Positions 9,370 through 19,612 of a stretch of DNA of 64,000 nucleotides are shown here, in pieces. Within the stretch, counting starts at the first letter, position 1. Each line of letters opens with the position of its first letter. Location of the stretch: assembly GCF_003115775.1 (NCBI RefSeq), contig NZ_QEES01000003.1, positions 62,001 through 126,000 on the forward strand, written 5' to 3'. This stretch comes from Cellulomonas sp. WB94 (GTDB lineage Bacteria > Actinomycetota > Actinomycetes > Actinomycetales > Cellulomonadaceae). The translations under genes and the position numbers were made by a program. Below the pieces are notes generated by a model. It searched no databases. It was not told the origin of the DNA and saw only the letters and a program-made list of their open reading frames with translations.

Positions 9370-10431
9370 TCAGCCGGCGAGCATCGAGCGCCCGGCCCCC
9401 GTCAGTGCACCGAGCCGCGACAGCGCGCGGAAGTACTTCTTGCGGTAGCCGCCCGCGAGCATCTCGGAGGTGAAGAGCTGCTGCTCGCCCGCTCCGCCGA
9501 GCACGACCGGGACGTCGCGGTCGTAGAGGCGGTCGACGAGGACCACGAACCTCAGCGCGACGTCCTGACTGTGGATGGTCCCGACGCCGGTCAGTGCCAC
9601 GAGCGCCACACCGTCCAGCAGCGCCCCGTACCGGCTCGGGTGGACCGTCGCGAGGTGCGCCAGCAGGTCGGCGAAGGGGTCGATCGTCGCGCCGGGCACG
9701 AGGCTCGCCGAGGTCCGCACCGTCTCGTCGGGGAGCCCGGGGGCATCGGTGACCACCACCCGGTGCCGGTAGTCCTCGCCGTCGACACGCAGCACCTCGA
9801 ACCGCGCCGCGAGCGCCTGGATCTCCCGGAGGAAGTCCTCGGCGGCGAACCTGCCCTCGCCGAGAGAGCCCGGCAGGGTGTTCGACGTCGCCGCGACCGC
9901 GACGCCACGGTCCGCGAGCTCGCGCAGGAGGCGCGTGACGAGGACCGTGTCGCCCGGGTCGTCGAGCTCGAACTCGTCGATGCAGACGATCCGGTGCGCA
10001 GCGAGCGCCTCGACGGTCGGCAGGAACCCGAGCGCGCCCACCAGGTTCGTGTACTCGACGAACGTGCCGTACGCGGCGCCGGTGCCTGCCGCTGTCCCTG
10101 TGCCCGTCGCGTGCGCGAGAGCCGCGAGCAGATGGGTCTTGCCGACGCCGAATCCCCCGTCGAGGTAGACCGCGGGCGCGGCTCCCCGGCGCCGCGGTCG
10201 CCACCAGGAGCGCCGCTCCCCCGCCGCGACGTCGGCCGCGACCTGCCGCAGTCGCGTGACGGCGTGCTGCTGGCTGGGGTGGGCCGGGTCGGGACGGTAG
10301 GTGTCGAACGACGCGGTGGTGAACAGCCGCGGCGGGACGAGCTCGGCGAGCAGCCGGTCGACGGGGACGACCGGGTGGCGTGAGGTCAGCGAGGGCGCGG
10401 AGGGGTTCGCTGGGGTCGCCGGCTCGGTCAC
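9370..10431 (-). CDS. zapE: Cell division ATPase ZapE (AFG1-like)
   Basis: A 353-residue AAA-type ATPase of the AFG1/ZapE family. Walker A is GGFGVGKTH at residues 92-100, Walker B is VCIDEFELDD (D152/E153), and AVAATSNTLPG near 175-185 acts as sensor 1. In gammaproteobacteria ZapE associates with FtsZ rings; mitochondrial AFG1 aids protein quality control. The actinobacterial role is inferred only from homology. A -10-like TAGGCT (10440-10445) lies 8 nt before the GTG, so the mRNA is probably leaderless, which supports this start. It diverges from the sulfur operon. Confidence 0.9.
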   Translation of the reverse strand: MTEPATPANPSAPSLTSRHPVVPVDRLLAELVPPRLFTTASFDTYRPDPAHPSQQHAVTRLRQVAADVAAGERRSWWRPRRRGAAPAVYLDGGFGVGKTHLLAALAHATGTGTAAGTGAAYGTFVEYTNLVGALGFLPTVEALAAHRIVCIDEFELDDPGDTVLVTRLLRELADRGVAVAATSNTLPGSLGEGRFAAEDFLREIQALAARFEVLRVDGEDYRHRVVVTDAPGLPDETVRTSASLVPGATIDPFADLLAHLATVHPSRYGALLDGVALVALTGVGTIHSQDVALRFVVLVDRLYDRDVPVVLGGAGEQQLFTSEMLAGGYRKKYFRALSRLGALTGAGRSMLAG

Positions 10432-10439
10432 GATCGACC

Positions 10440-10445
10440 AGCCTA
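10440..10445 (-). promoter_or_regulatory. -10 element of zapE (leaderless)
   Basis: TAGGCT on the minus strand ends 8 nt before the GTG start, the spacing expected of a leaderless actinobacterial promoter. Confidence 0.55.
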
Positions 10446-10494
10446 CGTCGGGCGGATCGCGCGGTCGGTTACACCCGCGGCGCGGAGCGGACTC

Positions 10495-10508
10495 GGGACC
10501 TTCGTCTC
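10495..10508 (+). promoter_or_regulatory. DosR/DevR-like box upstream of the sulfur operon
   Basis: GGGACCTTCGTCTC shares its first ten bases with boxes at 46914 and (with T for C at position 6) 33405. It resembles the mycobacterial DosR consensus GGGACTWWAGTCCC. It lies about 35-60 nt upstream of the cysteine-rich leader start codons. The regulator is unknown. Confidence 0.4.
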
Positions 10509-10566
10509 ATCATGCGGATGGGTGGTTTCATCCCTCGGACTCGTGTGTCAGCCTGAGCGGGTGCTG

Positions 10567-10647
10567 ATGACCGTGGTCTCCGGGTGCTGTCTGGCCTGTG
10601 GCGACCCCGCGGCGAGCACCATGCGCTGCTGCCCGCGGGTCGACTGA
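10567..10647 (+). CDS. Cysteine-rich leader peptide of the sulfur operon
   Basis: A 26-codon reading frame, ATG at 10567 and TGA at 10645-10647, translating to a peptide with five cysteines: CCLAC at residues 7-11 and CC at 21-22. In-frame GTG codons at 10543 and 10561 could also serve as starts, and no strong Shine-Dalgarno is seen. It lies 99 nt before sulfite reductase. Polycysteine short reading frames ahead of sulfur genes are known in mycobacteria as cysteine-responsive attenuators: ribosomes pause on Cys codons when charged tRNA-Cys is scarce, altering downstream RNA folding. Function here is inferred from the Cys density and the position. Confidence 0.65.
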   Translation: MTVVSGCCLACGDPAASTMRCCPRVD

Positions 10648-10659
10648 CCGCCCCACACC

Positions 10660-10738
10660 CCTCACCGGGCACGCGGTCACCGTCATGGAGACCGCCTCAG
10701 GCACCGTGATGTGACCGTGGGCCCATGTCCCCCGGAGG
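10660..10738 (+). promoter_or_regulatory. Possible Shine-Dalgarno-sequestering RNA structure
   Basis: By eye, CCTC (10660-10663) and CGGG (10666-10669) can pair with GAGG and CCCG of CCCGGAGG (10731-10738), covering the sulfite reductase Shine-Dalgarno. The enclosed region holds a 7-bp stem, CGGTCAC (10674-10680) with GTGACCG (10711-10717). A nested fold of this kind downstream of the leader peptide would suit translational attenuation. No folding energy was computed. Confidence 0.4.
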
Positions 10739-10746
10739 TAGCGCTG

Positions 10747-12405
10747 ATGGCGCACACCCGCATCGCACCGCGCGCGGCCAGGAACGAAGGCCAGTGGGCC
10801 TTCGGTGACCGCGAGCTGCTGAACGCGAACGAGGAGCTCAAGGCCGCCGACGACGGCCTCAACGTCCGCGCCCGCATCGAGACCGTGTACTCGCGGGACG
10901 GCTTCGCGTCGATCCCCGGCGAGGACCTGCGGTGTCGGATGCGCTGGTGGGGGCTGTACACCCAGCGCCGACCCGGCATCGACGGCGGCCGGACCGCGAC
11001 CCTCGAGCCGCACGAGCTCGACGACGAGTACTTCATGCTGCGGGTGCGGTGCGACGGCGGTCGGCTGACCCTGCGCCAGCTCCGCGTGATCGGCGAGATC
11101 TCGACCGAGCTCGCCCGCGGCACGGCCGACATCACCGACCGGCAGAACATCCAGCTGCACTGGGTCCGCATCGAGGACGTGCCGGAGATCTGGCGCCGGC
11201 TCGAGGCCGTGGGGCTCACGACGCAGGAGGCCTGCGGCGACGTGCCGCGCGTCATCCTCGGCTCACCGGTGGCCGGGGTCGCCGCCGACGAGATCATCGA
11301 CGGCACCCCCGCGATCGACGCGATCCACCGGCGCTACATCGGCGACCCGGCCTTCTCGAACCTGCCGCGCAAGTTCAAGACCGCGATCAGCGGCTCGCCG
11401 CACCACGACGTCGTCCACGAGATCAACGACGTGTCGTTCGTCGGTGTCGTCCACCCCGAGCTCGGCCCCGGGTTCGACCTGTGGGTCGGCGGGGCGCTGG
11501 CGGCCAACCCGATGCTCGCCGTCCGCCTCGGCGCCTGGGTGCCGCTCGAGGCGGTGCCCGAGGTCTGGGAGGGTGTCATCGGCATCTTCCGCGACTACGG
11601 CTACCGCCGCCTGCGCAACCGCGCACGGTTGAAGTTCCTGGTCGCCGACTGGGGCGCCGAGGTGTTCCGCGACGTGCTCGAGCAGGAGTACCTCGGCCGG
11701 CGCCTCGACGACGGTCCCGAGCCCCCCGCGCCCCCGCTCGGGCGTCGTGACCACGTGGGCGTGCACCCCCAGCGCGACGGCCGCTTCTACGTCGGTGCGG
11801 CGCCGACGGTCGGGCGGGTCAGCGGACCGATGCTGACGTCTCTCGTCGACCTCGCCGAGCGGGCCGGTAGCGACCGCGTCCGGCTCACGGTCGAGCAGAA
11901 GGTCGTCGTGCTCGACGTCGCGGCCGACCGGGTCGACGAACTGGTCGCCGGGCTCGAGCAGCTCGGTCTCGAGGTCACCGGCGCCTCGACGTTCCGGCGC
12001 GGGACGATGGCCTGCACGGGCCTCGAGTTCTGCAAGCTCGCGATCGTCGAGACCAAGGCGCGCGGTGCGGCGCTCGTCGACGAGCTCGAGCGGCGGCTCC
12101 CGACGTTCGAGCACCCGCTCACGATCAACCTCAACGGGTGCCCCAACTCCTGCGCACGGATCCAGGTCGCCGACATCGGCCTCAAGGGTGTCTTGGCGGG
12201 CGGCGACGAGGGTTTCCAGGTCCACCTCGGGGGCGCGCTCGGCATCGACGGCCGGCTCGGCCGGACGGTGCGCGGGCTGCGGATCACCGCGGAGGAGCTG
12301 CCCGACTACGTCGAGCGGGTCGCGACGCGGTTCGCAGCCCAGCGCGAGGATGACGAGGCGTTCGCGCAGTGGGCGCTGCGCGCCGACGAGGCGGAGCTCG
12401 CATGA
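10747..12405 (+). CDS. sir: Nitrite/sulfite reductase, ferredoxin-type (siroheme, 4Fe-4S)
   Basis: A 552-residue two-fold repeated siroheme reductase. Cluster/siroheme ligands are C423 and C429 (CTGLEFC) and C465 and C469 (CPNSC). The segment ADITDRQNIQLHWVRIEDVP is typical of the ferredoxin-dependent family. Its place before cysH-cysD-cysN and siroheme synthase makes sulfite-to-sulfide reduction much more likely than nitrite reduction. The ATG at 10747 is chosen because GGAGGT (10734-10739) sits 7 nt upstream; an in-frame GTG at 10711 has no such support. The stop overlaps the next gene by ATGA. Electrons probably come from ferredoxin. Confidence 0.93.
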   Translation: MAHTRIAPRAARNEGQWAFGDRELLNANEELKAADDGLNVRARIETVYSRDGFASIPGEDLRCRMRWWGLYTQRRPGIDGGRTATLEPHELDDEYFMLRVRCDGGRLTLRQLRVIGEISTELARGTADITDRQNIQLHWVRIEDVPEIWRRLEAVGLTTQEACGDVPRVILGSPVAGVAADEIIDGTPAIDAIHRRYIGDPAFSNLPRKFKTAISGSPHHDVVHEINDVSFVGVVHPELGPGFDLWVGGALAANPMLAVRLGAWVPLEAVPEVWEGVIGIFRDYGYRRLRNRARLKFLVADWGAEVFRDVLEQEYLGRRLDDGPEPPAPPLGRRDHVGVHPQRDGRFYVGAAPTVGRVSGPMLTSLVDLAERAGSDRVRLTVEQKVVVLDVAADRVDELVAGLEQLGLEVTGASTFRRGTMACTGLEFCKLAIVETKARGAALVDELERRLPTFEHPLTINLNGCPNSCARIQVADIGLKGVLAGGDEGFQVHLGGALGIDGRLGRTVRGLRITAEELPDYVERVATRFAAQREDDEAFAQWALRADEAELA

Positions 12406-12572
12406 GCGCCGCCGACGTCGCCGGCTCCGGCGAGCGCGTCACGGCGTACTACTGCCCGTACTGCGCCGGTGAGGACCTGCGCCCCGCGGGCGAGCGCCAC
12501 GGTGAGTGGGAGTGCCGTGGGTGCACCCGCGTCTTCGCGGTGCGGTTCATCGGCCTGGCGGTGCGGTCATGA
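12402..12572 (+). CDS. Small zinc-ribbon protein of the sulfur operon
   Basis: A 56-residue protein with two CxxC knuckles, CPYC (residues 18-21) and CRGC (39-42), about 20 residues apart, which form a likely zinc ribbon. It is locked into the operon by ATGA overlaps with both sulfite reductase and cysH, so it should be translated in step with them. As I recall, a similarly small unnamed gene lies between sir and cysH in Streptomyces. Function unknown: it might bind metal, assist cluster assembly or regulate. Expression looks certain from context; any role is guesswork. Confidence 0.8.
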   Translation: MSAADVAGSGERVTAYYCPYCAGEDLRPAGERHGEWECRGCTRVFAVRFIGLAVRS

Positions 12573-13273
12573 GCGCGCAGCTGCAGGACGAGGTCGCCCT
12601 GCGGGCGATCGTCGCCGACCAGGGCGCGAAGCTTGAGGGCGCGCACCCGTTCGACGTGCTCGACTGGGCCGGTGAGACGTTCGGTCCGGGGCTCGTGGTG
12701 GCGTCGTCGATGGGCGACGAGGTCCTCGTCCACCTGGCCGGCCGTGCGGTTCCCGGGGTCGACGTGATCTTCCTCGACACCGGGTACCACTTCGCCGAGA
12801 CGATCGGGACGCGCGACGCGTACGCCGAGACGACCGACATCACGCTGCGCACGATCCTGCCGCTGCGCACGGTCGCGGAGCAGGACGCCGAGCACGGGCC
12901 CCGGCTCCACGACCGGGACCCGAACCTGTGCTGCGCCCTGCGCAAGGTCGAGCCGCTCGAACGCGGGCTCGCGCCGTACCGCGCCTGGGTCACCGGAATG
13001 CGCCGCGAGGACGCCCCGACCCGCACCGACATCGCGGTCGTCGGCTGGGACGACAAGCGCGGCAAGGTCAAGCTCAACCCGCTCGCGGCCTGGACGCAGG
13101 ACGACGTCGACGCCTATGTCGCCCAGCACGGCGTGCTGCTCAACCCGCTGCGCCAGCTCGGGTACACGTCGATCGGGTGCGCGCCGTGCACCCGCGCCGT
13201 CGCACCGGGCGAGGACCCCCGGGCCGGTCGCTGGGCCGGCCTGGACAAGACGGAATGCGGGTTGCACACATGA
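12569..13273 (+). CDS. cysH: APS reductase (adenylyl-sulfate reductase, thioredoxin-type)
   Basis: A 234-residue enzyme that reduces APS to sulfite using thioredoxin. The PAPS-reductase fold shows SSMGDEV and FLDTGYHFAET. Unlike E. coli PAPS reductase it has the 4Fe-4S cysteines C121-C122 (NLCCALRK) and C204/C207 (GCAPC), which mark the APS-specific bacterial type. The catalytic cysteine is C230 in the C-terminal ECGLH. This agrees with the absence of an APS kinase gene (cysC). The start ATG at 12569 overlaps the zinc-ribbon stop, and the gene's stop overlaps cysD (ATGA). Confidence 0.95.
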   Translation: MSAQLQDEVALRAIVADQGAKLEGAHPFDVLDWAGETFGPGLVVASSMGDEVLVHLAGRAVPGVDVIFLDTGYHFAETIGTRDAYAETTDITLRTILPLRTVAEQDAEHGPRLHDRDPNLCCALRKVEPLERGLAPYRAWVTGMRREDAPTRTDIAVVGWDDKRGKVKLNPLAAWTQDDVDAYVAQHGVLLNPLRQLGYTSIGCAPCTRAVAPGEDPRAGRWAGLDKTECGLHT

Positions 13274-14211
13274 CGACGGAGACCACAGTGACCGATGCCC
13301 GCGCCGCCACGGCGCCCCGCAGGCTCACCCAGCTCGAGACGCTCGAGGCCGAGGCCATCCACATCTTCCGGGAGGTGGCCGGCGAGTTCGAGCGCCCGGT
13401 CGTGCTCTTCAGCGGCGGCAAGGACTCCGTCGTCATGCTCCACCTCGCGCGGAAGGCGTTCTGGCCGGCGCCGGTCCCGTTCACGCTGCTGCACGTCGAC
13501 ACGGGCCACAACTTCCCCGAGGTCATCGACTACCGCGATGCCGTCGTGGCCGAGCACCGCCTGCGGCTCGTCGTCGCGAGCGTGCAGGACGCGATCGACG
13601 CGGGGGCGGTCCGCGAGCGCCCCGACGGGTCCCGCAACGCGCTGCAGACGGTCCCCCTGCTCGACGCGATCACGACCCACCGGTTCGACGCCGTGTTCGG
13701 CGGCGGCCGCCGCGACGAGGAGAAGGCGCGCGCCAAGGAGCGCGTGTTCTCCCTGCGCGACGAGCTCGGACAGTGGGACCCGCGGCGCCAGCGCCCCGAG
13801 CTGTGGGACCTGTACAACGGCCGGCACAGCCCGGGCGAGCACGTCCGGGTCTTCCCGCTGTCGAACTGGACCGAGCTCGACGTCTGGCGCTACATCGAGC
13901 GCGAGGGCATCGACCTCCCGACGATCTACTACGCGCACGAGCGTCACGTGTTCCTGCGCGACGGGATGTGGCTCGCACCGGGCGACTGGGGTGGCCCGCG
14001 CGGGACCGAGACCGTCGAGCGACGCACCGTGCGCTACCGCACCGTCGGCGACATGAGCTGCACGGGTGCCGTCGAGTCCCGCGCGCTGACCGTCGACGAC
14101 GTGATCGTCGAGGTCGCGGCGAGCCGGCTCACCGAACGCGGGGCGACCCGGGCCGACGACCGTGCGTCGGAGGCTGCCATGGAGGATCGCAAGCGCGAGG
14201 GGTACTTCTGA
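13270..14211 (+). CDS. cysD: Sulfate adenylyltransferase subunit 2
   Basis: A 313-residue ATP-sulfurylase catalytic subunit that makes APS and pyrophosphate from sulfate and ATP. The PP-loop FSGGKDS is at residues 47-53, followed by LLHVDTGHNFPEVIDYRD. FGGGRRDEEKARAKER and the closing MEDRKREGYF are family hallmarks. It pairs with the GTPase CysN. The ATG overlaps the cysH stop by four bases and the stop TGA shares its final A with the cysN ATG, so the set is translationally coupled. Confidence 0.97.
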   Translation: MTTETTVTDARAATAPRRLTQLETLEAEAIHIFREVAGEFERPVVLFSGGKDSVVMLHLARKAFWPAPVPFTLLHVDTGHNFPEVIDYRDAVVAEHRLRLVVASVQDAIDAGAVRERPDGSRNALQTVPLLDAITTHRFDAVFGGGRRDEEKARAKERVFSLRDELGQWDPRRQRPELWDLYNGRHSPGEHVRVFPLSNWTELDVWRYIEREGIDLPTIYYAHERHVFLRDGMWLAPGDWGGPRGTETVERRTVRYRTVGDMSCTGAVESRALTVDDVIVEVAASRLTERGATRADDRASEAAMEDRKREGYF

Positions 14212-15527
14212 TGGGAACGACGCAGCACCACGAGCGCGACCTGCTCCGGCTGGCCACGGCCGGATCGGTCGACGACGGCAAGAGCACGCTCATCGGCCGG
14301 CTCCTCTACGACACCAAGTCGGTGCTCGCCGACCAGCTCGCCGCGGTCGAGCGCGCGAGCGTGGCGCGCGGCGGGGCGGTCGTCGACCTCGCGCTGCTCA
14401 CCGACGGGCTGCGGGCTGAGCGCGAGCAGGGCATCACGATCGACGTCGCGTACCGGTACTTCTCCACGGCCACCCGCGCGTTCGTGCTCGCGGACACCCC
14501 CGGCCACGTGCAGTACACGCGCAACATGGTGACCGGTGCGTCGACCGCCGAGCTCGCGATCGTGCTGGTGGACGCCCGCAAGGGGGTCCTCGAGCAGACC
14601 CGTCGTCACGCGGCCATCGCCGCGCTGCTGCGTGTCCCGCACATCGTCCTCGCCGTCAACAAGATGGACCTCGTCGGCTTCGACGAGGCGACGTTCCGGG
14701 CGATCGCCGCAGACTTCGCCCGGTACGCGGCGGACCTCGGGGTGCGCGACGTCCAGGCGATCCCGCTGTCGGCGCTCGAGGGTGACAACGTCGTCGACGC
14801 ATCGACCCGCACGCCCTGGTACGCCGGCCCGACGCTCCTGGAGCACCTCGAGGAGGTCCCGGTCGACCGCGACCCGACGACCGAGGCGTTCCGGTTCCCC
14901 GTGCAGGTGGTCATCCGGCCCCGGACGGCGGAGCACCCGGACTACCGCGGGTACGCCGGTCGCGTCGCGTCCGGGGTCGTCCGGGTCGGCGACGAGGTCG
15001 TCGTGCTCCCTGCGGGGGGGCGCACCCGCGTGGTCGGGATCGACACCGCCGACGGTGAGCTCACGCAGGCGTTCGCGCCGCAGTCCGTGACACTCCGGCT
15101 CGAGGACGACCTCGACGTGTCCCGCGGCGACGTGCTCGCTCCGGCGGGTGCGCCGACCGTGACGGGTGCGGACCTCGTCGGCACGGTGTGCTGGCTGTCC
15201 GAGCGTGCGCCCGCACCGGGCGCTCGCGTGCTCGTGCGGATCGGTACGAGGACGGTGCGGGGCCTCGTGCGCAGTGTCGGGTCCCGGCTCGACATCGACA
15301 ACCTGACCATCGACGAGGGCGCGACGACCCTCGCGCTCAACGAGATCGGCACGGTGCACGTGCGCCTCGCCGAGCCCGTCGTGCTCGACGCCTATGCGGA
15401 GCACCGTCGCACGGGCGTGTTCTTGCTGGTCGACCAGGCGGACGGCTCGACGCTCGCCGCCGGCATGGTCGGCCCGTCGGTCCTCGTGGCCGCCTCGGAC
15501 GACCCCGAGCGATGTCGGACGCGGTAG
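14211..15527 (+). CDS. cysN: Sulfate adenylyltransferase subunit 1 (GTPase)
   Basis: A 438-residue EF-Tu-like GTPase whose GTP hydrolysis drives CysD. G-motifs: GSVDDGKST (residues 18-26), DTPGH, and NKMD. Two beta-barrel domains follow the G domain. There is no C-terminal APS kinase domain, unlike CysNC fusions, consistent with the APS-type reductase CysH nearby. The start ATG overlaps the cysD stop. A 44-nt gap with its own ribosome-binding site leads to the transporter genes. Confidence 0.97.
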   Translation: MGTTQHHERDLLRLATAGSVDDGKSTLIGRLLYDTKSVLADQLAAVERASVARGGAVVDLALLTDGLRAEREQGITIDVAYRYFSTATRAFVLADTPGHVQYTRNMVTGASTAELAIVLVDARKGVLEQTRRHAAIAALLRVPHIVLAVNKMDLVGFDEATFRAIAADFARYAADLGVRDVQAIPLSALEGDNVVDASTRTPWYAGPTLLEHLEEVPVDRDPTTEAFRFPVQVVIRPRTAEHPDYRGYAGRVASGVVRVGDEVVVLPAGGRTRVVGIDTADGELTQAFAPQSVTLRLEDDLDVSRGDVLAPAGAPTVTGADLVGTVCWLSERAPAPGARVLVRIGTRTVRGLVRSVGSRLDIDNLTIDEGATTLALNEIGTVHVRLAEPVVLDAYAEHRRTGVFLLVDQADGSTLAAGMVGPSVLVAASDDPERCRTR

Positions 15528-15571: not shown

Positions 15572-16687
15572 ATGTCATCGCACCTCCCACCCCGTCCCCA
15601 CCGTCGCACCGTCCTCGCCGGCGGCCTCGCGGCGCTCGCCGCCCTGAGCCTCGCTGCCTGCGCCTCCTCCGGTCAGGCGGCGACGGCGCCCACGACCGCG
15701 GGGGCGTCCGGCGCGTCTGCCGCCGAGGCGCCCGAGCTGCGTCTCGGGTACTTCGCGAACATCACCCACGCGATCCCGCTCATCGGCGTCGCGAACGGCA
15801 CGTTCGCCTCCTCGCTCGGCGGCACGAAGCTGACGACCCAGATCTTCAACGCCGGGCCGGCCGCGGTCGAGGCGATCTTCGGGGGCGGGATCGACGCCGC
15901 CTACATCGGCCCGAACCCGTCGATCAACGCGTTCGCCAAGTCCGACGGCGAGGCGATCCGGATCATCGCGGGCGCGACGTCGGGCGGCGCCCAGCTCGTC
16001 GTGCGCGACGGGATCACCTCGGTCGAGGACCTGCGCGGCACGACCATCGCGACCCCGCAGCTCGGCAACACCCAGGACGTCGCGCTGCGCGCGTGGCTCA
16101 GGTCCAACGGGCTGCAGACGTCGGTCAAGGGCGGCCAGAACGACCTGGACATCGTTCCGCAGGAGAACGCCCAGACGCTCGACCTGTTCAAGCAGGGCGC
16201 CCTCGACGGCGCCTGGGTCCCCGAGCCGTGGGCGTCACGCCTCGTGCTCGACGGCGGCGCGCACGTGCTGGTCGACGAGGCCGACCTGTGGCCGGACGCC
16301 CAGTTCGTCACGACGAACCTCGTCGTGCGCACCGAGTTCCTCACGCAGTACCCCGGCACGGTCGCCAAGCTCCTCGAGGCGCAGCTGGCGACGACGGACT
16401 GGATCGCGGCGCACGACGCCGAGGCCAGGACGCAGGCCAACGACGCGATCGAGGCGCTGACGTCCAAGAAGCTCAGCCAGCAGGTCCTCGACCGCGCCTG
16501 GTCGAACCTGACGATCACGAACGACCCGGTCGCCAGCTCGGTGCAGACGTCCGCCGACCACGCGGCCGAGGTCGGCGTGTCCGGGAAGGTCGACCTGCAT
16601 GGCATCTACGACCTGACCCCGCTCAACGACATCCTGCGGGCTCACGGGCTCCCACCCGTGTCTGCTGCCGTGCTCGGGACGGAGTAG
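15572..16687 (+). CDS. Sulfonate-type ABC transporter substrate-binding lipoprotein
   Basis: A 371-residue secreted lipoprotein: positively charged N-terminus with RR at 11-12, hydrophobic stretch 14-29, lipobox LAAC with C30. The mature part, LRLGYFANITHAIPLIGVANGTF...GIDAAYIGPNPSINA, is the SsuA/NMT1 fold that binds sulfonates, taurine, nitrate or thiamine precursors. Its place after cysN makes a sulfur source the best guess (alkanesulfonate or sulfate ester). No SsuD or TauD desulfonating enzyme is nearby, so the substrate stays open. The ATG follows GAGAGG (about 15559-15564). Confidence 0.88.
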   Translation: MSSHLPPRPHRRTVLAGGLAALAALSLAACASSGQAATAPTTAGASGASAAEAPELRLGYFANITHAIPLIGVANGTFASSLGGTKLTTQIFNAGPAAVEAIFGGGIDAAYIGPNPSINAFAKSDGEAIRIIAGATSGGAQLVVRDGITSVEDLRGTTIATPQLGNTQDVALRAWLRSNGLQTSVKGGQNDLDIVPQENAQTLDLFKQGALDGAWVPEPWASRLVLDGGAHVLVDEADLWPDAQFVTTNLVVRTEFLTQYPGTVAKLLEAQLATTDWIAAHDAEARTQANDAIEALTSKKLSQQVLDRAWSNLTITNDPVASSVQTSADHAAEVGVSGKVDLHGIYDLTPLNDILRAHGLPPVSAAVLGTE

Positions 16688-16689
16688 CC

Positions 16690-17499
16690 ATGACCGCGAC
16701 CAGGACGGACCACCCCCTGCTCCCCGCCGACCTCTCCGTGCCCGACGACCCGCGTCCGCCTGCCGCCGTGCGCCTCGAGCAGGTGTCCAAGGACTTCGGC
16801 GACACGAGTCGACCGCCCGTCCTGGACCGGATCGACCTGACGGTGGCCCCCGGCGAGTTCGTGTGCCTCGTCGGGGCGTCAGGATGCGGGAAGTCCACGC
16901 TGCTGTCGATGATCGCGGGGCTCGACGCGCCGACCTCGGGAACGGTCGAGGTCGCCGCCGGGCGACCGGCCCTGATGTTCCAGGAGCCCGCGCTGTTCCC
17001 CTGGCTCGACGCGGGCCAGAACGTCGAGCTCGCCCTGCGGTTGCGGGGGGTGCCGCGGGGCGCGCGTGCCGGCGAGGCACGTCGGCTGCTCGACCTCGTG
17101 CACCTCGACGGCGCGTCGGCCAAGCGCGTCCATGAGCTCTCCGGAGGGATGCGTCAACGCGTCGCGCTGGCCCGGGCCCTCGCCCAGGAGGGGCGCGTCC
17201 TGCTCATGGACGAGCCGTTCGCCGCTCTCGACGCGATCACGCGTGACGTCATGCACGACGAGCTGACGCGCATCTGGCAGGAGACGGGTCTCTCGGTCCT
17301 GTTCGTGACGCACAACGTGCGCGAGGCCGTCCGGCTCGGGCAGCGGGTCGTGCTCCTGTCCTCCCGGCCCGGTCGGGTCGTGCGGGAGTGGACAGTCGGC
17401 ATCCCCCAGCCCAGGCGGATCGAGGACCCGGCGGTCGGCGACCTCTCGACCGAGATCACCGAGCACCTCCGACGGGAGATCGTCCGCCATGGCCGCTGA
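16690..17499 (+). CDS. Sulfonate-type ABC transporter ATP-binding protein
   Basis: A 269-residue ABC ATPase. Walker A GASGCGKST (residues 62-70), Q-loop in LMFQEPALFPWL, signature LSGGM (from residue 150), Walker B VLLMDEPFAALD and switch LFVTHNV. The pattern matches SsuB/TauB/NrtD-type ATPases. It begins 2 bp after the binding-protein stop, and its end overlaps the permease start by 11 bp, so it is one unit with them. Confidence 0.92.
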   Translation: MTATRTDHPLLPADLSVPDDPRPPAAVRLEQVSKDFGDTSRPPVLDRIDLTVAPGEFVCLVGASGCGKSTLLSMIAGLDAPTSGTVEVAAGRPALMFQEPALFPWLDAGQNVELALRLRGVPRGARAGEARRLLDLVHLDGASAKRVHELSGGMRQRVALARALAQEGRVLLMDEPFAALDAITRDVMHDELTRIWQETGLSVLFVTHNVREAVRLGQRVVLLSSRPGRVVREWTVGIPQPRRIEDPAVGDLSTEITEHLRREIVRHGR

Positions 17500-18373
17500 C
17501 ACTGCTCCGAGCGACGTCCGCGCCCTCGAGGCGGGCCTCGACGCGCTCGACTCGCTCGTCACACCGGTGCCCGCGAGCAGGACGCGCGCTGCATGGCGCG
17601 CCTTCTGGCCGACCGCCACGGCAGTCGTGGTGTTCGGCGCCGTGTGGCAGGCGGTCGCGCTCGCCGGGCTCAAGCCCTCGTACGCCCTGCCGAGCCCGGC
17701 CGACGTGTGGACCGCTCTCGTCGTCTCCGCCCAGGACGGCTCAGGGGTCCGGGCGGTCGGGCTCAGCCTGGAGCGCGGCGGCCTGGGGTTCGCGATCTCG
17801 GTCGTCGTCGGCGTGCTGCTGGGCACGGCGATGGCGACCGTGCCGCTGCTCCGGCGCGCGCTGGGGCCGATCGTCTCGGGCCTCCAGTCGCTCCCGTCGG
17901 TCGCGTGGGTGCCGGCCGCGCTCATCTGGTTCCAGCTGAGCAACGCCGCGATCTTCACGGTCGTCCTGCTCGGCGCGATCCCCTCGATCGTCAACGGGCT
18001 GCTCGCCGGCGTCGACCAGGTCCCGCCGCTGGTCCTGCGCGTCGGGCAGGTCCTCGGTGCGAGCGGGTGGACCCGGATCCGGTACGTGCTGCTCCCCGGT
18101 GCGCTCCCCGGGTTCCTCGCCGGGCTGAAGCAGGGGTGGGCGTTCGCGTGGCGCTCCCTGATGGCCGCCGAGCTGATCTCGTCCTCCCCGCAGCTCGGCA
18201 CGGGCCTCGGCCAGCTGCTCGACCTGGGCCGTCAGACCAACGACATGTCGCTGGTCATCGCCTCAATCCTGCTGATCTTCGCGGTCGGCATGGCGATCGA
18301 GCTCGCCGTGTTCGGTCCGCTCGAGCGGAAGGTGCTGCGCGCGCGCGGCCTGACCGGTACGAGCGGGCGGTGA
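17489..18373 (+). CDS. Sulfonate-type ABC transporter permease
   Basis: A 294-residue inner-membrane permease of the SsuC/TauC type, with about six hydrophobic helices. The EAA loop is visible as the stretch near residues 177-205, which includes the glycine of VLGASGWTRIRYVLLPGALPG. An N-terminal cytoplasmic extension of about 45 residues precedes the first helix. Start ATG overlaps the ATPase gene by 11 bp; cysG begins 6 bp after the stop. Confidence 0.92.
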   Translation: MAADTAPSDVRALEAGLDALDSLVTPVPASRTRAAWRAFWPTATAVVVFGAVWQAVALAGLKPSYALPSPADVWTALVVSAQDGSGVRAVGLSLERGGLGFAISVVVGVLLGTAMATVPLLRRALGPIVSGLQSLPSVAWVPAALIWFQLSNAAIFTVVLLGAIPSIVNGLLAGVDQVPPLVLRVGQVLGASGWTRIRYVLLPGALPGFLAGLKQGWAFAWRSLMAAELISSSPQLGTGLGQLLDLGRQTNDMSLVIASILLIFAVGMAIELAVFGPLERKVLRARGLTGTSGR

Positions 18374-18379
18374 CGTGCC

Positions 18380-19612
18380 ATGAGTGAGATCGCAGCCGGC
18401 CCGATCCGCCACCCGGTGCTGCTCGACCTGCACGGCCGTGGCGTCGTCGTGGTCGGCGGCGGCGTGGTGGCCACCCGTCGGACCATCAACCTGCTCGACG
18501 CCGGTGCGGTGGTGCGCGTGGTCTCGCCCGTCCTGAGCGACGACCTCGCCGCGCTCGCCCGTTCGGGCGCGCTGGAGCACGTGGCGCGGGGCTACGTCCG
18601 GGGAGACCTCGACGGAGCATGGCTCGTGCACACCGCGACGGGACATCCGGCGACGGACGACGCGGTCGCCGACGACGCCGACGCCGCCCGCATCTGGTGC
18701 ATCCGGACCGGCGACCCGTCGGCCTCGAGCGCCTGGTCGTCCGCGGTCGCGCGTTCGGGGGACGTCACGGTCGCGGTCAACGCCGGGGGCGACCCGCGAC
18801 GCGCCGCGGCGATCCGGTCGGCCGTCGCGACGCTGCTCGACACGGGCGAGCTGCCGATCCGCCGCCGCCGGCCCGGGCCCGGATCGGTCGCGCTCGTCGG
18901 TGGAGGCCCCGGCGACCCCGGCCTCATCACCGCCCGTGGTCGGCGCCTTCTCGCGCAGGCGGACGTCGTCGTCGTGGACCGGCTCGCCCCCCGCGAGCTG
19001 CTCGCCGGCCTGGACGACGACGTCGAGGTCATCGAGGCCGGCAAGTCGCCGGACGCGCACACGATCACCCAGGACGAGATCAACGCCGTCCTCGTCGACC
19101 GCGCGCAGGCCGGCCACCGGGTCGTGCGGCTCAAGGGCGGCGACCCGTTCGTGCTCGGACGTGGCGGCGAGGAGCTGCTGGCGTGCCTGGCCGCCGGGGT
19201 CGAGGTCGAGGTCGTCCCGGGCGTCACGAGCGCGTTCGCCGTCCCCGCGGCCGCGGGCATCCCCGTCACGCACCGGAACGTGTCCCGCCAGGTGACCGTC
19301 GTCTCGGCGCACGACGCGGCGCCGGACTGGCCCGCGCTCGCCCGCCTCGACGGCACGCTCGTGCTCCTCATGGGGGTCACCCGGTTGAAGCAGCACGCGG
19401 CGCGACTCATCGAGCTCGGGCGCGTGGCCTCGACGCCGGTGGCGGTCATCGAGCGCGGCACCACGCCGGACCAGCGCACCACCATCGGCACCCTCGCGGA
19501 CATCGCCGAGCTCGCCGCGGCCCGTGCCGTCCGCTCCCCCGCCGTCGTCGTCGTCGGCCCGGTCGTCGCCCTCGCGGAGTCCCTCGCCGGCACCTACCGC
19601 ACCCCGTCCTGA
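18380..19612 (+). CDS. cysG: Siroheme synthase (precorrin-2 dehydrogenase / SUMT)
   Basis: A 410-residue fused enzyme. Residues about 10-150 form the NAD-dependent precorrin-2 dehydrogenase/ferrochelatase module (VVVVGGGVVATRRTINLL). Residues about 165-405 are uroporphyrinogen-III C-methyltransferase, with VALVGGGPGDPGLIT, VVRLKGGDPFVLGRGGEE and VPGVTSAFAVPAAAGIPVTHR. It provides siroheme for the sulfite reductase at the head of the same operon. Last gene of the operon; it starts 6 bp after the permease. The next gene has its own promoter. Confidence 0.95.
   Translation: MSEIAAGPIRHPVLLDLHGRGVVVVGGGVVATRRTINLLDAGAVVRVVSPVLSDDLAALARSGALEHVARGYVRGDLDGAWLVHTATGHPATDDAVADDADAARIWCIRTGDPSASSAWSSAVARSGDVTVAVNAGGDPRRAAAIRSAVATLLDTGELPIRRRRPGPGSVALVGGGPGDPGLITARGRRLLAQADVVVVDRLAPRELLAGLDDDVEVIEAGKSPDAHTITQDEINAVLVDRAQAGHRVVRLKGGDPFVLGRGGEELLACLAAGVEVEVVPGVTSAFAVPAAAGIPVTHRNVSRQVTVVSAHDAAPDWPALARLDGTLVLLMGVTRLKQHAARLIELGRVASTPVAVIERGTTPDQRTTIGTLADIAELAAARAVRSPAVVVVGPVVALAESLAGTYRTPS

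Follow-up and report, generated by a model that had tools for sequence, protein, structure and literature searches.

The sulfur operon and its cysteine-rich leader frame

The window, by which we mean the whole stretch of 64,000 nucleotides from Cellulomonas sp. WB94 that was analysed, carries a sulfur operon that begins with sir and is preceded by a short cysteine-rich frame. The features of this locus are as follows.

10504..10518, + strand: conserved box GTCTCATCATGCGGA upstream of the leader, spanning -57 to -43 relative to its start; candidate binding site for a regulator
10549..10554, + strand: -10-like hexamer CAGCCT; A at -11, C at -8 and T at -7, with G at -14, each in 32/32 related regions
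10561..10647, + strand: cysteine leader MLMTVVSGCCLACGDPAASTMRCCPRVD, five Cys (2 TGT and 3 TGC codons), probable leaderless start GTG
10648..10669, + strand: C-rich 22 nt directly 3' of the leader stop (C 0.64, G 0.18)
10667..10724, + strand: conserved long imperfect hairpin with a variable cap, from minimum-energy pairs and pair counts in relatives
10734..10739, + strand: Shine-Dalgarno GGAGGT of sir, read from the sequence
10747..12405, + strand: sir, ferredoxin-type nitrite/sulfite reductase family (NCBIfam PRK09566.1, E 8.3e-107, below cut-off)
12402..12572, + strand: small CPYC/CRGC protein between sir and cysH, zinc-ribbon-like by eye from its sequence
12569..13273, + strand: cysH, APS/PAPS reductase (PRK02090.1 over cut-off; TIGR02055 APS_reductase below cut-off)
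13285..14211, + strand: cysD (TIGR02039 over cut-off; start approximate)
14211..15527, + strand: cysN (TIGR02034 over cut-off; start approximate)
15572..18373, + strand: ABC transporter of sulfonate/taurine type, with binding protein, ATPase and permease (PF13379 over cut-off; PRK11248 and TauC-type models below cut-off; start approximate)
18380..19612, + strand: cysG-like siroheme synthase (TIGR01469 and TIGR01470 over cut-off)

A preliminary description of this DNA had placed a complete APS-reductase pathway here, and family matches, some of them below curated cut-offs, bear this out for sir, cysH, cysD, cysN, the ABC transporter and cysG. The name sir is based on family and gene neighbours, and the small CPYC/CRGC protein at 12402-12572 had no NCBIfam or Pfam match. 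Among named sequences, sir is closest to those of Cellulomonas, with 95 percent identity to one from a MAG of this genus and 85 percent to that of C. cellasea. We also observed that Cellulomonas sir is 70-74 percent identical to Streptomyces sir, as against 63-69 percent to sir from other genera within the family; this greater nearness to Streptomyces suggests transfer or hidden paralogy.

The leader frame is present as first described, at 10567-10647: it has 26 codons and five Cys, including two Cys pairs, reads MTVVSGCCLACGDPAASTMRCCPRVD, and has its stop 99 nt ahead of the sir ATG at 10747. Cysteine is scarce in the surrounding genes, as had also been pointed out (25 Cys among 4076 codons in 11 window genes). 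The frame is not a product of chance, because none of 300 dinucleotide shuffles of the window's own upstream region, and 42 of 9600 shuffles over 32 Cellulomonas loci, reached at least five Cys in 26 codons. Across the 64 kb window, 3/680 stops on the + strand and 0/684 on the - strand have at least five Cys in the preceding 26 codons, and the other two on the + strand overlap larger ORFs in another frame or on the other strand. What needs amending is the start, which had been put at ATG 10567; GTG 10561, which lies two codons further upstream, is the likely one and gives a leader of 28 codons.

Conservation, promoter spacing and codon usage in Cellulomonas

The preliminary description had proposed aligning the region upstream of sir in relatives. 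The 38 Cellulomonas sir loci that we compared comprise 32 distinct upstream sequences, and the Cys-rich frame is kept in all 32, with 4-8 Cys in the last 26 leader codons and with 96-128 nt between the leader stop and the sir ATG. Cys accounts for 200 of the 986 leader codons. When the 32 leaders are aligned, one Cys is invariant, an adjoining Cys is nearly invariant, as is an Arg two residues on, and little else is common (mean column identity 25 percent); at E up to 1, none matches an NCBIfam model. The cysteine-rich leader frame ahead of sir is real and conserved.

To compare upstream regions, we aligned all 32 without gaps, anchoring them on an in-frame GTG (31 regions) or ATG (one region). 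An in-frame start codon lies 6 nt past a -10-like core in 32/32, a fixed distance that is no independent test, as the starts were hand-picked from in-frame candidates with promoter spacing in view, and that requires such a start in every locus. In addition to the four invariant positions in and near the hexamer listed above, T at -35, G at -45 and TCTC at -56 to -53, within the upstream box, are found in all 32 regions. Leaderless mRNAs are expected to have a -10 element, with A in second and T in sixth position, six bases ahead of the start codon. Because GTG 10561 sits 6 nt past the -10-like hexamer, in which A(-11) and T(-7) are invariant in 32/32, the leader mRNA is probably leaderless, and GTG 10561 is probably the leader start. 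A scan of the window region for consensus sigma-70 promoters found none.

Third-base usage also bears on translation of the leader. In the Cellulomonas leaders, 3/105 non-Cys two-fold codons end in T, as against 240/831 in the flanks, which fits leader translation. TGT makes up 96/200 Cys codons in the leaders and 1/126 in sir of 20 relatives, although the related loci are not independent and the significance of this comparison is not to be read at face value. In control flanks (130 nt upstream plus the spacer, assumed noncoding), the TGT share is 0.43, near the 0.48 of the leaders, so the Cys codons of Cellulomonas leaders simply escape the usual third-base bias; the same similarity weakens the case for UGU as a Cellulomonas-specific preference.

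Spacer RNA, upstream box and rival accounts of control

The spacer between the leader and sir was aligned in 30 rows, two duplicates having been removed from the 32. The long hairpin at 10667-10724 has 17 pairs, with pairing in 83.6 percent of cells as compared with 31.9 to 52.9 percent in slid controls, and a shorter hairpin that shares its 5' strand has 84.6 percent paired; both were drawn from the same sequences that were tested, and this gives them an advantage over the slid controls. Cells with two-sided changes exceed the shuffle mean for both hairpins (20 vs 13.2 for the long, 10 vs 4.4 for the short), and the numbers of pairs with two-sided changes and of pair types are not above shuffles for either. 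The apical cap hairpin varies in sequence and has a mean z of -1.90, with 22/30 below -1.5; the window's own cap is weak (-0.17). In full-length ensemble folds, modelled without a ribosome, the long hairpin is not dominant (mean probability 0.16), and the hairpin states show no sensible response to a modelled ribosome position. An Rfam search of 10300-10900 gave no match up to E 1. A scan of 10430-10900 for intrinsic terminators returned 0 terminator-like sites, which speaks against an intrinsic terminator as the output and leaves the region without the hallmark of a trp-type attenuator.

The preliminary description had drawn a translational attenuator, in which 10660-10669 pairs with the Shine-Dalgarno region at 10731-10738, around an inner stem, and is relieved by a stalled ribosome; as cited in the available text of PMC13236596, translational attenuation is the published model for mycobacteria. 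The inner stem is present, being contained in the conserved hairpin 10667-10724. The outer pairing was not borne out as a preferred fold: eight pairs can be drawn, none of which occurs in minimum-energy folds, where 10667-10669 pair with 10722-10724 to form the base of the hairpin, and computational folding of the region, which had been suggested as a check, gave a result no better than shuffles (z -0.70). In the 30 aligned relatives, 83.7 percent of cells in the proposed pairs are paired, above the 20.2 to 67.4 percent of slid controls, and the post-stop 19 nt pair with the Shine-Dalgarno at a probability above 0.5 in 6/32 loci, of which the window's is not one. However, the proposed pairs have zero two-sided changes, and thus no covariation, and 479/500 shuffles reach at least the same level of pairing, since there is almost no variation in either arm. 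The U-A pair with the A of the Shine-Dalgarno is kept in 4 of the 17 rows that have letters there, CCUCC occurs in just 2/32 spacers, and the best duplex between the Shine-Dalgarno and the spacer is at shuffle level (mean z 0.05 for 32 loci; -0.22 for the window). Accessibility of the Shine-Dalgarno differs from that in shuffles by -0.011 on average, and the probability of its pairing with the post-stop stretch at the window locus is 0.01. Placing a modelled ribosome at the first Cys, the last Cys or the stop did not open the Shine-Dalgarno as expected, and a stall at the last Cys left it slightly more closed than in the stop state (mean -0.052, p 0.025). Sequestration of the Shine-Dalgarno is therefore not well supported by the modelling, and we consider a translational attenuator of the form drawn unlikely. 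The earlier proposal is supported for a cysteine-responsive leader of a sulfur operon (conserved Cys codons, position, and promoter spacing in 32/32) and finds no firm support for hiding of the Shine-Dalgarno as the output. A different output would be Rho-dependent termination in the C-rich, G-poor tract that follows the stop, governed by leader translation. Averaged over the 32 loci, these 22 nt have C 0.62 and G 0.19, against 0.41 and 0.34 in the rest of the spacer; no intrinsic terminator was found in 10430-10900, and Rho was proposed for Mycobacterium cys leaders by Seliverstov 2005 (PMC1262725, in the text available). Nonetheless, the genome as a whole is rich in C, and the tract is short and is present in 27/32 loci, with C at just 0.36-0.41 in the other five (L004-L008). 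Nor is it obvious that a ribosome held up at the final Cys pair, which here lies five to six codons upstream of the stop, would cover the tract, and this makes the sign of control ambiguous. The modelled effect of the stop state on the tract is trivial, since the ribosome itself blocks part of it. Control by Rho seems to us improbable.

Two further alternatives give sensing of cysteine by the leader little or no part. The main control could be a regulator acting via the GTCTCANNATNCGGA box, with the leader contributing little. The box is the most conserved upstream element, and a copy of GTCTCANNATNCGGA with one mismatch (L211) lies elsewhere in the genome, ahead of a rhodanese-like and then a SufE-like gene (names assigned by eye from translations), without a Cys leader; the only perfect match in the genome is the box at 10504-10518 itself. 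Such a regulator would leave the retained Cys codons and the spacer hairpins unexplained, and we view this account as quite improbable. It is highly unlikely that the frame instead encodes a working micro-protein, with a role in redox or metal binding, rather than a sensor: the Cys-rich C terminus (consensus CCCPRSx) is kept within Cellulomonas, but leader length varies from 24 to 58, the sequence varies outside the Cys residues to the extent given above, and the same place in other genera of the family is occupied by different Cys-rich peptides. We note that a second inverted repeat, approximately TGGAC-N4-GTCCA, is visible by eye about 30 nt 5' of the box in several relatives (L025, L029, L049 and others) and is not evident in the window.

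Leaders ahead of sir in other actinomycetes and a proposed cysteine sensor

To place the element more widely, we used a family sample of 150 genomes, in 115 of which sir could be placed. Upstream DNA was read at all but a few of these places: 20 loci of Cellulomonas type, 10 further loci from the automatic set (L037-L046) and 80 stretches fetched separately, among which three duplicate automatic loci. A model built on the spacer matches the sir spacer in all 20 Cellulomonas-type genomes with sir, which supplied its training sequences and so match by construction; in the other 130 genomes nothing was found at E 0.01, with filters that may lose weak matches. There is one extra spacer copy, on the minus strand of one genome (L254, G084 C2:141209-141324), which has its own four-Cys leader MTCRRVMPCAGTCCPRTV (start uncertain) and, after it, a frame of 53 codons whose stop and the start of an SsuA-like transporter binding-protein gene overlap. 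In the genome of the window, the spacer model gave just two matches besides sir (E 1.0 and 7.1) and no other clear copy, the canonical leader models gave four sub-threshold matches and no clear copy, and a Cys-run pattern for further leaders gave 61 matches against 117 for a reversed-pattern control, which makes it uninformative. These scans thus give no clear evidence of a coordinated set of such leaders in this genome. In other genera of the family, a frame with at least 4 Cys lies at the expected distance in 60/80 stretches and is absent from 20/80, compared with 61/4000 shuffles; these Cys-rich frames differ from those of Cellulomonas (for example, MTTAARTLLVTSRHGMPACAHTCLSCCR).

The class was sampled with 48 loci chosen to spread over families, from 227 class genomes with sir, plus 10 further genomes. 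A leader of R[RL]HxD type with Cys precedes sir in 61/62 Streptomyces-type loci, 35/48 class loci (19 families) and 10/10 further loci, counts that carry no shuffle control. The 13/48 class loci that do not have it include 9 of the 11 from other families of the window's order. In family f10, the leaders end in CTCCCLA or similar, with the Cys codons at the end. The TGT habit is sharper in other lineages than in Cellulomonas, notably in Streptomyces-type leaders: 61 of these contain 61 TGT and 6 TGC after the motif, while the upstream DNA of such loci contains 298 TGT and 303 TGC, and their sir genes 8 TGT and 305 TGC. At least one TGT is present in 34/35 class leaders, and the leaders of the ten further loci have 21 TGT vs 8 TGC.

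Polycysteine leaderless short ORFs of mycobacteria (Canestrari et al. 2020, doi 10.1111/mmi.14498) are reportedly cysteine-responsive. Like them, the Cellulomonas leader is a short frame rich in Cys codons that is probably leaderless and stands at the 5' end of a sulfur operon, with a Cys cluster near the stop in 32/32 loci. It differs from them in leader sequence, its response to cysteine is a prediction, and computation gives no firm support in Cellulomonas for the Shine-Dalgarno sequestration of the mycobacterial model. Among NCBIfam models, NF042936 (leader_Ms4527A) recognises leaders ahead of sir in family f10 (2/3 scanned were over the 45-bit cut-off, the third scoring 43.2) but matches 0/32 Cellulomonas leaders at E up to 1, from which the RRHVD motif is absent; Ms4527A itself presumably lies ahead of sir in M. 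smegmatis. NF042934 (cis_reg_atten), the type found ahead of Streptomyces sir, likewise describes a leader ahead of sir, with mostly TGT Cys codons, and the one Streptomyces leader scanned was over its cut-off. Unlike the Cellulomonas leaders, this type has few Cys codons and a conserved RRHVDL core, which all 32 lack; neither NF042934 (27-bit cut-off) nor NF042933 (leader_Ms5788A, 45-bit cut-off) matched any of the 32.

Published accounts give these likenesses some context. Cysteine-responsive attenuation by mycobacterial Cys leaders is reported, with reference to earlier work, in the accessible portions of PMC9031893, PMC9094748 and PMC13236596, and ribosome occupancy of such leaders was observed according to the text available from PMC4633059. 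As far as the accessible text of PMC1262725 goes, a prediction of Cys-rich leaders in front of cys operons was made in 2005, with no conserved terminator hairpins. The Cys leaders of Mycobacterium, P. acnes and B. longum cbs treated there share Cys codon runs near the stop and the absence of a terminator hairpin with Cellulomonas; that text reports no conserved terminator-capable hairpin, whereas Cellulomonas has conserved non-terminator spacer hairpins. The uORFC-8-2 motif ahead of cysS in Rhodobacterales also has Cys codons in a short upstream ORF, but, in the part of PMC8632094 available, an intrinsic terminator with a U run and dominance of UGC belong to the Rhodobacterales element. A literature search that covered few subscription papers, and in part titles and the starts of abstracts, found no paper on a Cellulomonas cysteine leader.

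We think it likely that the Cellulomonas sir leader is a cysteine sensor read by the ribosome, in which a stall alters pairing between leader and spacer and raises expression of the sir operon. Transcription would start at or next to GTG 10561, and a ribosome would enter at the mRNA end and translate the 28-codon leader. Shortage of Cys-tRNA would then stall the ribosome at UGC or UGU codons, as described for mycobacterial leaders of like design in the accessible text of papers that cite that work. The stalled ribosome could shift leader/spacer RNA pairing, relayed via the capped hairpin 10667-10724 and its neighbours, and this shift would raise expression of sir and the genes behind it, with either translation initiation or transcription termination as the output. 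Cysteine sensing, as known for mycobacteria, is the most likely function because a Cys-rich frame recurs ahead of sir in Cellulomonas relatives, and the sensor reading is also supported by many other actinomycetes in which a leader with Cys precedes sir. By analogy, the Cellulomonas leader is best read as a lineage-specific variant of the mycobacterial polycysteine leaderless attenuators. The element most likely shares the logic of the mycobacterial Cys leaders and not their leader sequence, which would make it a new sequence form. If a sensor of this kind operates, ribosome-based cysteine sensing extends past mycobacteria, in a form missed by current leader-peptide models (0/32 recognised), and the conserved spacer hairpin becomes a candidate for an output step other than hiding of the Shine-Dalgarno.

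More speculatively, and with considerable doubt, we propose that the actinomycete sir leader is a single, ancient sensor of cysteine that mostly has UGU as its regulatory Cys codon, while UGC is used elsewhere in these genomes. Cellulomonas would have swapped an RRHVDL-type peptide for a polycysteine one, and its spacer would have gained a dedicated two-state RNA, made of a short hairpin and a long capped one with a strand in common, which works without hiding of the Shine-Dalgarno, and could be copied as a module to transporter genes. If so, the UGU habit of the related leaders bears on how such leaders set their sensitivity.

Canonical leaders were also sought within the genus. In 7 genomes, NF042934 and NF042933 gave nothing over cut-off. 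Two genomes of the C. cellasea group (G001 and G005; L356 and L357) have a sub-cut-off leader of canonical type (E about 4e-5) that reads QRAVDLMRVASRLCR; it ends VDLMRVASRLCR, with a TGT Cys codon, and lies ahead of an ABC transporter ATPase gene. Lastly, in a distant genome (L319, family f36), sir is preceded by a frame that is very rich in Cys and ends MCCCMCCSA, perhaps an independent polycysteine leader.
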